Below, one piece after another: positions 7,086 to 21,557 of a stretch of 22,156 bases of DNA. The translations under genes and the position numbers were made by a program. The stretch comes from a virus. The first letter of the stretch is position 1; every line of letters starts with the position of its first letter. Under the pieces are notes generated by a model. It saw only the letters and a list, made by a program, of their open reading frames with translations, did no database searches and was not told where the DNA came from. The stretch spans positions 1 to 22,156 of the IMG/VR virus record IMGVR_UViG_3300025282_000281; one strand, 5' to 3'.

Positions 7086-7865
7086 TTACGGCTGCTTGCC
7101 GTATTGAGTCATACCATCCGTGGTGCGTTGTGCTACCGTCAAGATATAGTCACAATCAACCTTATTGGCCGCAGCTTCACCAGCTACCGCAGCAAGCCAA
7201 GTAGTCATCTGGGTAGTTGGAATAGTTGTAGTTGAAGCGGTCGTTGTAACCAATTTACGATCAACATAGAACTCAACGATGCCCGTTCCACGCACAATGA
7301 AGCCCAACCGACGATCACCACTGATTGTGCCACCGGAAACCGAGCCATCAGCAAAATCAATACCTGTATCGGTGGAAGTTTCAGTACCCCCATTATCGCA
7401 AACAGCATTAATAGAAGCATCACCATCAGAGACCAAGAAACCAATCTGATCATTGGTGGCAAAAGGCACCGTTGCGCTGAATGTGCCGTTTATACAAAGC
7501 CCAACGAAAATATCCATTTGATCCGCATCCGTCGTAACAATGCGAGTTTCAAAGAAAATGTTCTTGTTGGCTTCGGCTTGCCAGATTTCATTGCCTTGAA
7601 TAGCAGCACCAGTGTCATCTGATCCCGTACCAGCAATCTCATACCATCCACCAACGGCATCAGCGAGAATAGCGCCTGTGCCACTTGTGAGTTGTGAATA
7701 GGTCCAATCATTAGTGCCATCCACCGCAATCCCAATAAAATCTTCATACTGGAAGACGTAATCAGGATTGGATTGGATTGGAAGATTAGTGAACCATGTG
7801 CCGCCAGCGGATTGGGTTGCCCCACCGCTATATGCCACTGGTCCTGAAAAACGTGTAGTACCCAT
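7086..7865 (-). CDS. Putative capsid-associated jelly-roll protein, 259 residues
   Basis: The N-terminus MGTTRFSGPVAYSGG, a middle AIQGNEIWQAEANKNIFFET followed by DADQMDIFVGLCI, then DRRLGFIVRGTGIVEFYVDR and a C-terminal DCDYILTVAQRT, match what I recall of a conserved protein encoded directly after the major capsid gene in environmental phages. Alternating beta strands suggest a concanavalin-like jelly roll. It could decorate the capsid or form a head-surface spike. Translation starts at ATG 7865 behind a very strong AAGGAGG. That Shine-Dalgarno forms one arm of the putative RNA structure in the upstream gap, so synthesis of this protein may be controlled separately from the capsid protein. 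The structural role is inferred. Confidence 0.65.
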   Translation of the reverse strand: MGTTRFSGPVAYSGGATQSAGGTWFTNLPIQSNPDYVFQYEDFIGIAVDGTNDWTYSQLTSGTGAILADAVGGWYEIAGTGSDDTGAAIQGNEIWQAEANKNIFFETRIVTTDADQMDIFVGLCINGTFSATVPFATNDQIGFLVSDGDASINAVCDNGGTETSTDTGIDFADGSVSGGTISGDRRLGFIVRGTGIVEFYVDRKLVTTTASTTTIPTTQMTTWLAAVAGEAAANKVDCDYILTVAQRTTDGMTQYGKQP

Positions 7866-7870
7866 GAGTA

Positions 7871-7947
7871 CCTCCTTACGAAAGGTTTCGCCCTAGAGTC
7901 TTCGTAAGCGTCTGCTGGGACAGTCGCTAGGGCTAAAATGCTCCCAG
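7871..7947 (-). promoter_or_regulatory. Candidate structured 5' leader RNA with crossing helices
   Basis: Read on the minus strand, this untranslated leader contains four inverted-repeat pairs. P1 pairs 7927-7933 with 7890-7896 (GCCCUAG/CUAGGGC), then after one A/G mismatch 7935-7937 with 7886-7888. Inside it a hairpin pairs 7921-7928 with 7907-7914 around one A/A mismatch, with a six-base loop at 7915-7920. That loop is complementary to 7942-7947. The segment 7901-7908 is complementary to 7875-7882, which overlaps the AAGGAGG (7871-7877) of the downstream gene. The pairs cross, so a double pseudoknot or a switch between structures is possible. I do not match it to a known riboswitch. Function as a translational control element is inference. 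Confidence 0.45.
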
Positions 7948-7953
7948 AGGAAA

Positions 7954-7976
7954 TGGAGGGGGACGAACCCCCTCCA
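7954..7976 (-). other. Strong 9-bp hairpin after the major capsid gene
   Basis: A perfect nine-base-pair stem (TGGAGGGGG with CCCCCTCCA on the plus strand) closes a five-base loop, nine bases beyond the capsid stop codon. On the minus-strand transcript no U-run follows, so it is not a textbook intrinsic terminator. It could block 3' exonuclease decay of the capsid message, mark a processing point or slow the polymerase. Confidence 0.6.
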
Positions 7977-7984
7977 AACCCGGT

Positions 7985-8893
7985 TTATGCTCCAGGTGAT
8001 CCGAAGACACCGCGAGGATCAGACCAACCGAACACGTAGCGTTCGCGAGCCTTATACCTAACGTTACCGGTGTCAAAATCACCTTCCATCGAAGTCCTAA
8101 CGGCAGTCCGATTAAAGCCCTTCAAGCCATTAGGAGCATCCGTCCGAATAAACCACGCATCCGTGTCGGTAAGGAAATGGTTAACGGCATAACCTTCCGG
8201 AAGCATACCCATGTTCCGAATAGCATTTATGTCGTTATCCGCCGTACCTGGACGCAAGGTCGATTCAAGCAGACGATCAGAGGTGAACTGAAGTTCCTTT
8301 GGAACAATCATTCTCGTCCCCTTAACAGCAACCTTCAGCCCGCGCTCATCAACGAAACCAGCAATATCAATGAGAGCTTGCTCAAGGCTAGTCTCATTAA
8401 GATCCGCTGCTGTTGAAAGCTCGTTCCGGAAGGTGTTTCCGTTAAGAAGAGTATGAGCGGTTGAGCAAAGCTCAAGACCGTCACCACCTGTGTAGGTGCT
8501 GTCGAAAGCGTTATTGAGAACTGCCGCCGCTTTGACCTGCTTGGTTTGGCTCATGCTACGAGCCAGTGCTTTCGTATACCTTGCAGACAAACGATCATAC
8601 AGGTTGTCTTCCACAGCTTCTTCCGTAATGGAGAATGCCAAAGCAATCGTCTCCATCGTGTAACGAGCCGTGTAGACTTCCTGTGCATCGTCATAAGTAA
8701 CAGCAGTGCCTTCGCTCTTCGTCGGGGCGGCTCCAAAGCCACTCAGCATGACCTCTTCTTCAAAAGCACGGTCAGATGTTTCCATATCGAAAATCATCCT
8801 GCTTTCGTCGTCATACTGATCGTACTCAAGACCAAACAAAGCATTAAGGCCGGGTTCTAGCTCTTTAACAAGTTGTGCGCGTGAAATAGCCAT
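7985..8893 (-). CDS. Major capsid protein (HK97-like, Mu gpT-related type)
   Basis: This 302-residue protein has the N-terminal pattern MAISRAQLVKELEPGLNALF and then GLEYDQY, which I recognise from Mu gpT-like major head subunits in environmental phages. Further landmarks are VTYDDAQEVYTARYTMETIA, LAFSITEEAVEDNLYDRLS, the helical RYTKALARSMSQTKQ, and the C-terminal KARERYVFGWSDPRGVFGSP. It should form the icosahedral shell. A separate scaffold gene lies two genes further on; no prohead protease gene is visible. GGAGG eight bases before the ATG at 8893 predicts strong translation. The gene is flanked by a decoration-like gene and a strong 3' hairpin, consistent with high expression. Confidence 0.85.
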   Translation of the reverse strand: MAISRAQLVKELEPGLNALFGLEYDQYDDESRMIFDMETSDRAFEEEVMLSGFGAAPTKSEGTAVTYDDAQEVYTARYTMETIALAFSITEEAVEDNLYDRLSARYTKALARSMSQTKQVKAAAVLNNAFDSTYTGGDGLELCSTAHTLLNGNTFRNELSTAADLNETSLEQALIDIAGFVDERGLKVAVKGTRMIVPKELQFTSDRLLESTLRPGTADNDINAIRNMGMLPEGYAVNHFLTDTDAWFIRTDAPNGLKGFNRTAVRTSMEGDFDTGNVRYKARERYVFGWSDPRGVFGSPGA

Positions 8894-11020: not shown

Positions 11021-11455
11021 TTAAATATGCAGGATATCTTCAGGGTCCTGTATGACGGCTATGACTTCGTCGTCGTTCAATATGCGTACCTCGCCACCGT
11101 CAATCCTAAAACGAGCGCCAGCATATCTTCCAAAAATGATCCAATCCTTTTCCTTGCACCAGGGGCCGTTGGGAAATTTTTCCTCGTCCTTATACGCCAA
11201 AGGTCCGGTGCGTAAAACATAACCACACACCGTGGCTACCGCTTCACGATCTACCACGGTATCCGGCAAGAATATCCCAGCTTCTGTTTTTCCTTTTCCA
11301 CGATACGGCAGGATCAACAAGCGCCACCCCGTAGGCTTGGGAAGTCGCTCCAATGAGGAATCCTCTATTTTGTCGGGATCAAGGATCTTCTCCTCGACGG
11401 CTATATAAGCATCCTTTAAAGATACGACCGTGTCGTCTTGTGTTGCTTCAGGCAT
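11021..11455 (-). CDS. GroES-like co-chaperonin
   Basis: After a 38-residue extension not found in bacterial GroES, residues 40-135 follow the Cpn10 pattern: KPTGWRLLILP, a mobile-loop region with GKTEAGIFLPD (residues 55-65), then GYVLRTGPLAYKDEEKFPNG and GPWCKEKDWIIF, GRYAGARFRIDGGEVRILND and DEVIAVI. The mobile loop would bind host GroEL, with IFL in place of the usual IVL triplet. No groEL gene is in view, so it probably replaces or competes with host GroES, as T4 gp31 does, to fold capsid protein. It lies directly upstream of scaffold and capsid genes. GAGGA precedes the ATG. The family call is strong; the substrate is inferred. Confidence 0.85.
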   Translation of the reverse strand: MPEATQDDTVVSLKDAYIAVEEKILDPDKIEDSSLERLPKPTGWRLLILPYRGKGKTEAGIFLPDTVVDREAVATVCGYVLRTGPLAYKDEEKFPNGPWCKEKDWIIFGRYAGARFRIDGGEVRILNDDEVIAVIQDPEDILHI

Positions 11456-17774: not shown

Positions 17775-20700
17775 TCACGCCCCCATAACTAGCGATTGAA
17801 CAGGATTTTTCATAAAATGTCCAATGCCTTGGAAAACGGGCTTTTCGACAGAACCGCCTTGGGCATAACCCGGTATTTGTATCATCTCATCGACGTATGA
17901 TTCCAGAACCTTGGTGCGGTCTAAAACCTCCTGGTCCCAGACAACGTAATTACGAGATCCTTTCTGACCGGGCCGACTAAATTGATCGAAATACTTGAGG
18001 CCGGGAATCCCTATTGCCTCTAAATCTGTCGCTACTTCTATTTTAGGCTTAACCCCTTCCAAAAAGGTTTGAACCTGCTTTCCGGTTAAATCCTCATATT
18101 TTAATCCCCGCGTCTCTGCCTCCGTTCTAAGAAATGAAGACAAACGCTGTGAATCTGTACTTGGACGTTTTTCCAAAGCCTTCATAAGTCCAGGTTGTTC
18201 ACTCAGCGGCATATCCCAGTCTAACATCCTGGCGGCGTCCGCATCCGGAACATCAAGTTTATATAAAGCGCCTTTGTCTACACGTCCTACTTTCAAATCA
18301 AGTCTATAAGCCATGTTTTCCAGAGCCGCCATGTGAGACTGGGGGTTACGGGGAAAATTAAACCATTGCACTACCTTTGCCGGTAGCTCTTCCCCATAAG
18401 CTCTTTTCCACGCTTCCTTAAACGGCACTTCTTTTCCAGCTTCCATTATTCCATATCGCTCAATGTCACTTAGTCTATTTTTATACATTCTTGCAACATC
18501 CGGAATTTCAGCTGCATAAAACCCGTGTCCAAATGCGCCATGGCCTTCACCCGTACCTATGAAGGCTTTACTTGGTCTTCCTTTCGGAAAACCCTTTTCC
18601 GCCAGCCATCGGGTCGGCCCACCATGAAAAACAGTTACGCCAGCCCCTAGCATGTTCATCCCCAGAAGCTCATGAGTTATGCCCTCTGTATAAACCTTCA
18701 TAGCATCTCTAATACGGCCTTGATCCATAAGGGCGTCAGAGGCTTCTCTTTCTCTATCTAGCTGCTCTCGAATCTCAGGAGGATACCTAAACAAGTCCAC
18801 CACAGGTAGTTTGGCCTCTAGACCGACAAGCGGGTCCATGGGATCGCCAACCCAACCGCCTTCTGCAAACTCTGGAAGCGTGACGATGCCGCCGGAAGCC
18901 TTACCGGGATCGTATTTAAATTCCCGCAACGCCCTCATATTGCCAGAATCCAATACGGAGAAAGGCACGTCGCTATATAAAGTGTTGGTTTTGGCGTCCT
19001 CCACGTCAAACGTCATGCCTTCGACACTTTCATCCCCGGCAGCGTCCCACAAGCCGTTTGCGATTTCTCGCAATTTCTTAGACGTTATGTCGTAAGCTTC
19101 CACGTTGTTTCCGGCAACGCGAACATAGCCAAGATGCCTTATTCCGTATTCTCTGGGATGAGAACCAGGATGACCCGAAGCTATGTGTAACTCTTCCTCG
19201 TTGATCCCCAACTTTTTTAATAAGGCTTCTTTTGCTTCAGGCTCGTCTTTGGTCAGCTCGTTACCGTAGGCATCTATTTCTGTCGTTTCCAACTCACGCA
19301 TTTTTCTCAAAATAAACCGACCAACGTCATATGTTAGAATTTCTCTTCCCTCCGGGCTTTCGGTCAGTTCATCATATTCATCCCCAATAGTCTCCGCTTT
19401 ATCGGCCCAGTCTTTCCAATCGACATCGAAATTAGCGTCTATAGCATCGACCAACTTACGTACTACATGTTCCCGGACGATCATGTCGTGGTTGAAATCG
19501 CCAACGTCGCCATCAGCAAATTGCGCTTCTCCTTCGACCAGGAACCACTCGCCCGGTACTTCTTTAAAGGTAGGCTTGAAATCCTTGGTTATGCCCATGA
19601 TTTCGTCGTATTCCCTCCGCGCCTGACGCGCCTCATCAGCTACGCTGCTCGGTGCATTAACCAATCTTTGTGCCGCTTCCGGCAATGTTCCAATGCCTTC
19701 TTCGGGCGGTGGAGAAAGGTCCGGTAAAGGTATGGCCTCTGCCGCTTCCGGCAACGTTCCGATGCCTTCTTCGGGCGTCGGCGTCATTAGTTCCTTGAAG
19801 TATTCCAGTCCCGACTTGTCCAGCCCAAACAATTCATGCGTCTTGGTTTCCTTTAGCCAATCCACCGCGTCCCCAATATTCTGTTTGTATTCGTCTGGAA
19901 TGTAGGGCCACGCTTGCTGGACGGCGGTTATGATAGGAAACATTCTTCGACTGATCTGCTTTAATCCACCGATACCACGCCACATCGGGCCTTTGCCCGT
20001 GGGCCGTGGTTCTTCGCCCGGTTCCCGTAATTGAGAAGCGGCGGAGGCTGCACCCAGTAGGGCGGGTAAATGATGCGGACGACGACGAGGAAACAATTCG
20101 AGAGGGGGTTCAGGGAGTTGTTGAATATTTTCTTTATCTAATACCAAATAGCTTATAGAGCCTGGATCTTCCACGCTGTTCTCGTAAATAATACCGTCAA
20201 AGCCTTTCTTTTTAAATTCTTCAAATGCTCCTGGCATATTTAACAGCATGAACAAATCATGTTCAGATATAGGATTTTCTTCCGTCCCATAAGGATTGTT
20301 AAGGGTTATTTCAAAAGGAATTATTTTTTCTCCCCCTGGCTTCCCTCCTTTCATGCGCGAATAAGTCCCTTCTCTTAGACGATTCTCTGCTGCTTGCGCC
20401 GTTCCAAAATGAAATCCTCCGAAACCTGTTTTCTCAGGAAGACCCTCCTCTCTAGTACCGTGATAGACTTTTCTAACAAGGGGCCGTGGTTCGTCAGCCG
20501 TCTCCGTGGGCCGTGGTTCCTGAAATATGGAGGCCGCATGTTGAAAACCTGTAGGATCTTCAGCTATCTTATCAAGCGCCCTTAATAACTCAGCAGCTTT
20601 CTTAAACTGCCTTTCACCTACAGCAACAGCCGCATCACGGGCTAATTTCTGGGGTCGATTAAATACTGGGATTTTTCTATGCTCATCTGCATATTTCTTC

Positions 20701-21557
20701 ATAAGCTGATGATAACGCTCTCTTATCGTATCAACCGATTCTGATACCCCCTTTGTTTCCCGATTGTAGTGAGCCAGCCCTTCGTGATTTTGTTCTATAA
20801 ATGCTTCAAGATTAGGATTCTCTAGGGTTTGAACCTTACCCGCTATCTTGCTCCTGACTCTTTCGCGCCTAAAGGAACCCCATTCAGCTTCATTAGTTAA
20901 GACGTGTGTTAGGTCTCCTATATGTTCAAGAACGTTATCTAATTCAACAGCAACGCGCGAACCCAACACATCAAGCATAGCTGTTTCTGGGGCACCACGT
21001 TGAGTACTGCTTACAGTCTTAAATGCTTTGAGGGCCTCTGGAGATAGCTGCGTTGGTTCTCCTTTCGATCCAACCCAATGACCTCTCGTGGGCCGTGATT
21101 CATAAAATTGCCTCAAACGCTCTACGGATAAGGGACCCTCAACATCTTCAGCCCCTCTCAAATACCGTAATTCTACGGGTATGGTATCGCGCCCCGACTT
21201 CACCGCCTCTACAACTCTGTGGTTGCCTTCTATAATAAAGGGCTGACCGTCTTCCCTGACAAATACAAGAATAGGGGATGGCTTGTACCCTTCTTCTTGT
21301 ATGCTTTCTTCAATAAGGTTTAATTTTTCACCGCTCTCCCTGTAATCCTCCTCGCCCAATGCACCCGGAATGTCCTTGAGTAAATCAGGAGAGAGGTCCA
21401 AATCTTCACGGAAATATCCCGTAATGTTAGCGGCTCCAACCTTTCTTGTAGAAGTATCTGAAGGAGCCGTCTGATAGTCTTTTTGAGCTTGCTTCAGCTT
21501 ACTCTGGAGCCAATCCCCACCGGGGTTGTCTATATAAAGTTTAGGCAGTTCAGCCAT
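17775..21557 (-). CDS. Polyvalent protein: ParB-like domain plus two ADP-ribosyltransferase-like domains
   Basis: This 1260-residue protein has a ParB/sulfiredoxin-like domain at about residues 75-135 (SPILVFV, then IIEGNHRVVEA at 108-118). A first ART-like domain lies near 360-480: VYHGT at 364, GFHFGT, FEITLNNP and GFDGIIYEN. A second, clearer ART-PolyVal-like domain lies at about 974-1210: VFHGG at 976, GTGEGHGAFGHGFYAAEIPD (1001-1020), LYKLDVPD, LDWDMPLSEQ, NYVVWD. Between them is a conserved-looking region at 660-880 (FLVEGEAQFADGDVGDFNHD) I cannot assign. The ATG at 21557 overlaps the terminase stop by eight bases and has GGAG upstream. Polyvalent proteins are thought to be delivered with phage DNA and to modify host targets. 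Catalysis is inferred, not shown. Confidence 0.75.
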   Translation of the reverse strand: MAELPKLYIDNPGGDWLQSKLKQAQKDYQTAPSDTSTRKVGAANITGYFREDLDLSPDLLKDIPGALGEEDYRESGEKLNLIEESIQEEGYKPSPILVFVREDGQPFIIEGNHRVVEAVKSGRDTIPVELRYLRGAEDVEGPLSVERLRQFYESRPTRGHWVGSKGEPTQLSPEALKAFKTVSSTQRGAPETAMLDVLGSRVAVELDNVLEHIGDLTHVLTNEAEWGSFRRERVRSKIAGKVQTLENPNLEAFIEQNHEGLAHYNRETKGVSESVDTIRERYHQLMKKYADEHRKIPVFNRPQKLARDAAVAVGERQFKKAAELLRALDKIAEDPTGFQHAASIFQEPRPTETADEPRPLVRKVYHGTREEGLPEKTGFGGFHFGTAQAAENRLREGTYSRMKGGKPGGEKIIPFEITLNNPYGTEENPISEHDLFMLLNMPGAFEEFKKKGFDGIIYENSVEDPGSISYLVLDKENIQQLPEPPLELFPRRRPHHLPALLGAASAASQLREPGEEPRPTGKGPMWRGIGGLKQISRRMFPIITAVQQAWPYIPDEYKQNIGDAVDWLKETKTHELFGLDKSGLEYFKELMTPTPEEGIGTLPEAAEAIPLPDLSPPPEEGIGTLPEAAQRLVNAPSSVADEARQARREYDEIMGITKDFKPTFKEVPGEWFLVEGEAQFADGDVGDFNHDMIVREHVVRKLVDAIDANFDVDWKDWADKAETIGDEYDELTESPEGREILTYDVGRFILRKMRELETTEIDAYGNELTKDEPEAKEALLKKLGINEEELHIASGHPGSHPREYGIRHLGYVRVAGNNVEAYDITSKKLREIANGLWDAAGDESVEGMTFDVEDAKTNTLYSDVPFSVLDSGNMRALREFKYDPGKASGGIVTLPEFAEGGWVGDPMDPLVGLEAKLPVVDLFRYPPEIREQLDREREASDALMDQGRIRDAMKVYTEGITHELLGMNMLGAGVTVFHGGPTRWLAEKGFPKGRPSKAFIGTGEGHGAFGHGFYAAEIPDVARMYKNRLSDIERYGIMEAGKEVPFKEAWKRAYGEELPAKVVQWFNFPRNPQSHMAALENMAYRLDLKVGRVDKGALYKLDVPDADAARMLDWDMPLSEQPGLMKALEKRPSTDSQRLSSFLRTEAETRGLKYEDLTGKQVQTFLEGVKPKIEVATDLEAIGIPGLKYFDQFSRPGQKGSRNYVVWDQEVLDRTKVLESYVDEMIQIPGYAQGGSVEKPVFQGIGHFMKNPVQSLVMGA
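19672..19776 (-). repeat. 69-bp duplicated linker in the polyvalent gene
   Basis: The plus-strand blocks starting GCCGCTTCCGGCAA at 19672 and 19741 are offset by exactly 69 bases. They encode two copies of PEEGIGTLPEAA (around residues 595-606 and 618-629), separated by Pro-rich sequence. This looks like an expanded interdomain linker. Confidence 0.8.
19999..21101 (-). repeat. Dispersed 14-base linker word encoding E-P/S-R-P-T
   Basis: GTGGGCCGTGGTTC occurs on the plus strand at 19999-20012 and 20506-20519; a one-base variant (GTGGGCCGTGATTC) is at 21088-21101, and a shorter GGGGCCGTGGTTC at 20480-20492. All are read in the same frame and give EPRPT, EPRPL or ESRPT. They fall just after the ParB-like domain, before the first ART-like domain, and after it. 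Confidence 0.75.

Follow-up and report, generated by a model that had tools for sequence, protein, structure and literature searches.

Compact H-type pseudoknots with a 3′ strand that overlaps or abuts the Shine–Dalgarno sequence form the translational riboswitches SAM-II and preQ1-II, and the S4/alpha operon and T4 gene 32 leaders are autoregulated mRNA pseudoknots, lying at or near the ribosome binding site, that control proteins needed in set amounts. A phage RNA family, Mu-gpT-DE (RF03012), is typed in Rfam as 'Gene; sRNA' and was listed earlier among the families whose published structure is without covarying pairs (PMC7657543); our full-text literature search found no paper on its function.

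The window analysed here, a 22,156-nucleotide stretch of a viral record, contains a 119-base gap between two minus-strand genes (7866–7984), which we propose encodes an RNA leader related to Mu-gpT-DE. The upstream gene (7985–8893, minus strand) encodes a major capsid protein of 302 residues, which matches PF25209 (1.5e-12) and, weakly, PF10124 (Mu gpT; 4e-05), and is 59–74% identical to the capsid proteins of Roseobacter, Pelagibacter and Planktothrix phages and of phage DSL-LC04. The downstream gene (7086–7865, minus strand) encodes a 259-residue protein, probably a capsid decoration or cement protein, with the N-terminal tag MGTTRFSGPV and a body of predicted concanavalin-A-like lectin fold; the first 52 residues are modelled with low confidence (mean pLDDT 65). 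Read along the minus strand, the gap holds a terminator-like hairpin of 9 bp (7954–7976) and then the leader, and most relatives show a similar G+C-rich hairpin between the capsid gene and the leader. Elsewhere on the minus strand of the window, a phage co-chaperonin GroES gene (11021–11455; PF00166, phrog_3188) is located upstream of the capsid genes, an arrangement shared by related isolates; a large protein at the window end (3–1478) carries a Laminin_G_3/concanavalin-like domain (PF13385), making it a second lectin-like protein beside the 259-residue one; and a 1260-residue protein (17775–21557) has no Pfam match.

In the leader RNA, helices A and C make up one H-type pseudoknot and helices B and D another, the two being interleaved; the helix strands follow one another on the minus-strand RNA in the order A1-B1-C1-A2-C2-D1-B2-D2. 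Helix A is formed between the 5′ flank (A1, CUGGGA, 7942–7947) and the loop of hairpin C (A2, UCCCAG, 7915–7920). Stem B (B1, GCCCUAG, 7927–7933; B2, CUAGGGC, 7890–7896) encloses hairpin C, which has 3 bp (C1, CUG, 7921–7923; C2, CAG, 7912–7914) and is followed by a conserved AC. Helix D (D1, CUUACGAA, 7901–7908; D2, UUCGUAAG, 7875–7882) crosses B and ends inside AAGGAGG, the Shine–Dalgarno sequence of the 259-residue gene (7871–7877), four bases of which (GAGG) remain unpaired. D1 is linked to B2 by a conserved GAC (7898–7900), in which the GA is unpaired and the C probably pairs with the G preceding C1.

A sequence-only reading of this DNA had picked out four complementary pairs within 77 bases of the gap (7871–7947), and all four are present. 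In a search for the four-helix layout, the 85-nt leader scored −44.6, a value that 20,000 dinucleotide shuffles of the same 85 nt never reached; 113 of them reached −30. A folding energy no better than that of shuffled sequence had been named beforehand as an outcome that would count against a structure, and nested folding of the 77 bases gave exactly this (z −0.83, with 43 of 200 shuffles as good); the energy is unremarkable because nested folding is blind to crossing pairs. Nested folding of the whole gap gave a better z of −2.56, but included the upstream terminator-like hairpin.

The leader structure is real: all helices are kept, with compensatory changes, in relatives picked by protein alone. 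Viral contigs were fetched through the 259-residue protein (73) and through the capsid protein (80). In an alignment of 38 protein-selected leaders, made by sequence alone, 97.5% of cells were paired and two-sided changes were seen at nine of the 21 pairs (shuffle mean 2.5); none of 500 shuffles matched either value, and pairing fell to 31–52% when the 3′ strands were slid as a control. Five of the seven pairs of stem B show two-sided changes, and the middle pair of hairpin C changes from UA to CG, with CAG/CUG in two leaders (L277 and L282). Helix A is paired at only 89.5% in this alignment because the spacer length varies; an alignment-free test found the upstream complement of the loop-C pentamer in 75 of 76 leaders, the single failure being a leader cut off by the end of its contig, compared with 3 of 532 controls in which pentamers were taken from other leaders.

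The same behaviour was found when the 88 window-type leaders were placed on a tree of 130 capsid proteins, on which many branches are weak and the counts of changes are approximate. The loop pentamer changes 10 times with its complement kept in all 88; the D1 pentamer changes seven times with its complement found after B2 in 86 of 88 (controls, 2 of 264); and pair 3 of stem B changes between CG and UA nine times, in no case becoming broken or nonstandard. Predicted pairs also fill the top 16 places of a ranked covariation table, but the rows of that table were selected by the pairing itself, and the claim of conservation relies instead on the layout test of capsid-sampled leaders (below) and on the loop-complement, 38-leader and capsid-tree tests. 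Across these leaders, covariation supports A (7942–7947/7915–7920), B (7927–7933/7890–7896), inner C (7921–7923/7912–7914) and D (7901–7908/7875–7882), and with them the earlier proposal that the ribosome binding site of a head-protein gene lies in a structured leader whose helices cross.

Some of the finer detail of that proposal did not survive. The 7-bp stem B is upheld by covariation, but the three A–U pairs that were thought to extend it past a mismatch occur in only one of 37 distinct cores. Similarly, the inner 3 bp of hairpin C hold, but the outer pairs beyond its A/A mismatch are not conserved; the G there closes B instead, across a C·U mismatch at a position that is C–G in 8 of 88 relatives. 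Nor is the suggestion that the RNA switches between states supported: the A1:B1 hairpin, the dominant element of the minimum-energy fold, is kept in one of the 37 distinct cores, and a conserved two-state switch is therefore unlikely.

The leader fold recurs in many marine and freshwater phages with very different sequences. When 43 dissimilar leaders were sampled only through the neighbouring capsid gene, 25 gave a layout score of −30 or better, compared with 1.0% of 8,600 shuffles; by the layout search the family includes the Pelagibacter phages HTVC027P and HTVC023P (L194 and L198), DSL-LC04 (L199), a Manatee Spring sequence (MW202675, L206) and many pelagiphage-like contigs, and their stems share almost nothing with those of the window. 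A covariance model built from a window-like set with B and C only (R1) picked up 11 divergent leaders, located at the same site, with E < 0.001, and its second-round successor (R2) reached the pelagiphage and G+C-rich types; the leaders found by these window-derived models sit upstream of a gene bearing the N-terminal tag. Throughout, the constant core is B, A, C(loop)C, AC, 7–9 nt, GA, B. Direct blastn searches of annotated phages with the leader gave only weak, chance-like matches of 30 nt, and the window-type pattern had no exact match in 84,980 bacterial and archaeal species genomes. In one leader (L244, 3986–4078), the A, B, C and D pairing can all be read by eye without the AC and GA core bases, which suggests that the core bases are replaceable; its R1 score is only 17.5 bits.

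No described motif had been recognised in the gap, and Rfam bears this out for the window itself: nothing credible was found, RF03012 did not match at its gathering threshold (49 bits) or at E ≤ 10, and no Rfam 15 riboswitch model matched. The motif is nevertheless not an isolated new one, as had been supposed, because RF03012 occurs in sister phages, where it occupies the same position and has the same core. Most of the leaders outside the window-type layout have the simpler form CCUG-A-hairpin-AC-nnnnGCCAcGA-CAGG-AG, and among leaders of this form RF03012 matches five at 60–77 bits (L197, from Roseobacter phage CRP-902, L241, L246, L251 and L264), with L249 and L271 just under threshold. Leaders of the RF03012 type occupy the same slot as the window type, before the same tag-bearing gene, and the two types are intermixed on the capsid tree. 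A core grammar, written after inspecting both types, fits 29 of the 43 leaders, drawn from both, compared with 22 of 4,300 shuffles, and window-type leaders fit it if a 1×1 mismatch inside B is allowed. The two types are bridged by L277 and L282, which have the form CUG-A-CAG..CUG-AC..GA-CAG and complete A and D helices. A pairing of the loop with CCA in Mu-gpT-DE, visible in L197, L241, L251 and L262 and absent in L245, L249 and L259, is not claimed. The window leader is probably an elaborated variant or relative of Mu-gpT-DE, a link that rests on the shared core and position; we do not call it a member, because the window and RF03012 do not match directly and models R1 and R2 did not match the Mu-gpT-DE leaders.

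The genes that follow the leader begin with a tag such as M-A-N-T-T-F-S-G-P-V-R-S (common form M-x-TTFSGPV), and their bodies form 16 clusters; a few of these clusters consist of genes that lack the tag. On the capsid tree the RNA type changes 16 times and the body 55 times, and two of the body families (b1 and b2) are each found with five or more RNA types. The homologue in DSL-LC04 is annotated 'cement protein', and fold matches of a 153-residue tag protein (L246) include capsid or cement chains of Pam1 (7eel_H), GP4 and KHP40, at low confidence (E about 1e-3). The tag is thus most likely a plug-in capsid anchor. It was also observed, in the longer form M-x-TTFSGPVRS..GF, joined to many unrelated bodies among the downstream genes (L075–L284 and the window gene at 7086–7865), and phrog_36974 matches only the first 32–36 residues of two members.

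Of 145 distinct leaders, 125 have a Shine–Dalgarno match that starts within helix D and 18 more have one that starts 0–5 nt after it, so that D overlaps or abuts it in 143; in the L247, L280 and L199 lineages it is unpaired, 3–5 nt past D. In Mu-gpT-DE leaders it is the CAGG strand of stem B that overlaps or abuts the Shine–Dalgarno sequence, and the main argument for translational control is that different helices of related RNAs meet the same ribosome site. We therefore favour, as moderately probable, the view that the gap encodes a cis-acting 5′ leader that controls translation of a cement or decoration gene, and that it is an elaborated relative of Mu-gpT-DE. On this proposal the leader would fold into the two interleaved pseudoknots, helix D, reaching into the Shine–Dalgarno sequence, would limit binding of the 30S subunit, and the folded leader would set the amount of cement protein relative to capsid protein; the fold would, that is, lower or regulate translation. 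Because cement bodies swap freely under the same leader, any putative ligand should be common to all these phages, such as the tag, the capsid protein, the ribosome or a small molecule, and of these our favourite candidates are the tag and the major capsid protein. A broader and distinctly tentative form of the idea is a superfamily of double-pseudoknot phage leaders, with Mu-gpT-DE as the minimal form, that senses free capsid protein or the universal cement tag; were it true, cement synthesis would be matched to shell assembly, with bodies swapped and one control device kept.

A stable pseudoknot next to a start site may also act constitutively, and the leader might, without any ligand, protect the cement mRNA at its 5′ end or fix an accessible Shine–Dalgarno geometry. 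In nine of 16 leaders from non-window lineages a −10 element lies 4–12 nt before A1 (6.5% of shuffles), so that in several lineages the RNA probably starts its own transcript, a placement that suits a cis-acting leader as well as a stability element; a −10 element was found in none of 10 window-type leaders, and the main text of the HTVC027P transcriptome paper (PMC12753301) was found to contain nothing on the leader region. The four unpaired Shine–Dalgarno bases in the window and the unequal rates of RNA and body change, which speak against a body-specific ligand, also fit a constitutive element. However, the Shine–Dalgarno sequence is overlapped directly, and the unpaired core bases (A, AC and GA) are strongly conserved among very divergent stems, suggesting a tertiary or binding core, and we regard this explanation as rather unlikely.

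The same conserved unpaired bases, together with compact pseudoknots whose 3′ helix lies on the Shine–Dalgarno sequence as in several translational riboswitches, might instead indicate that a late structural gene is controlled by a riboswitch that senses a metabolite or an ion. This seems improbable, given that the gene context is always one class of virion protein and that, with no match of the window-type pattern among the bacterial and archaeal genomes searched, there is no host gene context. Still less probable is a small RNA that acts in trans and is produced from the region behind the capsid gene, for which the Rfam typing of the likely relative RF03012 and the preceding terminator-like hairpin could be cited. 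Against it, the 3′ helix of nearly every leader enters the Shine–Dalgarno sequence a few bases from the start codon, nothing resembling a terminator was found between the RNA and that codon, and in four leaders (L194, L195, L250 and L253) with 625–644 bases between the capsid and tag genes the RNA stays beside the tag gene; that it follows the tag gene where insertions of other genes have parted this from the capsid gene argues for cis action. Finally, a DNA recombination junction, with leader and tag kept as homology for swapping cement bodies, would suit the frequent exchange of bodies downstream of a constant leader and tag but is scarcely credible, since compensatory changes and near-total divergence of the stems with pairing kept point to selection on RNA structure rather than on DNA identity; body swapping may be a by-product.

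If the leader is, as we favour, a translation-control element, it offers a specific, testable idea of how capsid and cement proteins are kept in proportion in these phages. A unit made of RNA and tag would account for the exchange of unrelated decoration domains with capsid attachment and expression control preserved. The results also suggest that the 53-base motif, which Rfam lists as a possible small RNA, lies at the margin of a far bigger family of elaborate 5′ leaders that extends across ocean and freshwater phages, cultured pelagiphages included; this family has deep covariation and isolates (HTVC023P, HTVC027P, CRP-901/902 and DSL-LC04) in which it can be found.

In comparison with known systems, the leader resembles those of the S4/alpha operon and T4 gene 32 in having a pseudoknot at or near the ribosome binding site, but it differs from them in topology and sequence, and its putative target varies in the body, with only the N-terminal tag constant. 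With SAM-II and preQ1-II it shares a compact H-type pseudoknot at the Shine–Dalgarno sequence; in contrast to them, it has two interleaved pseudoknots, a phage structural-gene context and no match to an Rfam riboswitch. Mu-gpT-DE is smaller, with 53 positions, a longer hairpin and a 4-bp stem B that itself holds the Shine–Dalgarno sequence, so that the role played by helix D in the window falls there to the 3′ strand of the outer stem, and the RF03012 model has neither a 5′ strand pairing to the loop nor a separate helix D, both of which the window has. The two nevertheless share the slot after a Mu gpT-like capsid gene and before a tag-bearing gene, the core B-A-C..C-AC-N7–9-GA-B, and a helix over the Shine–Dalgarno sequence.
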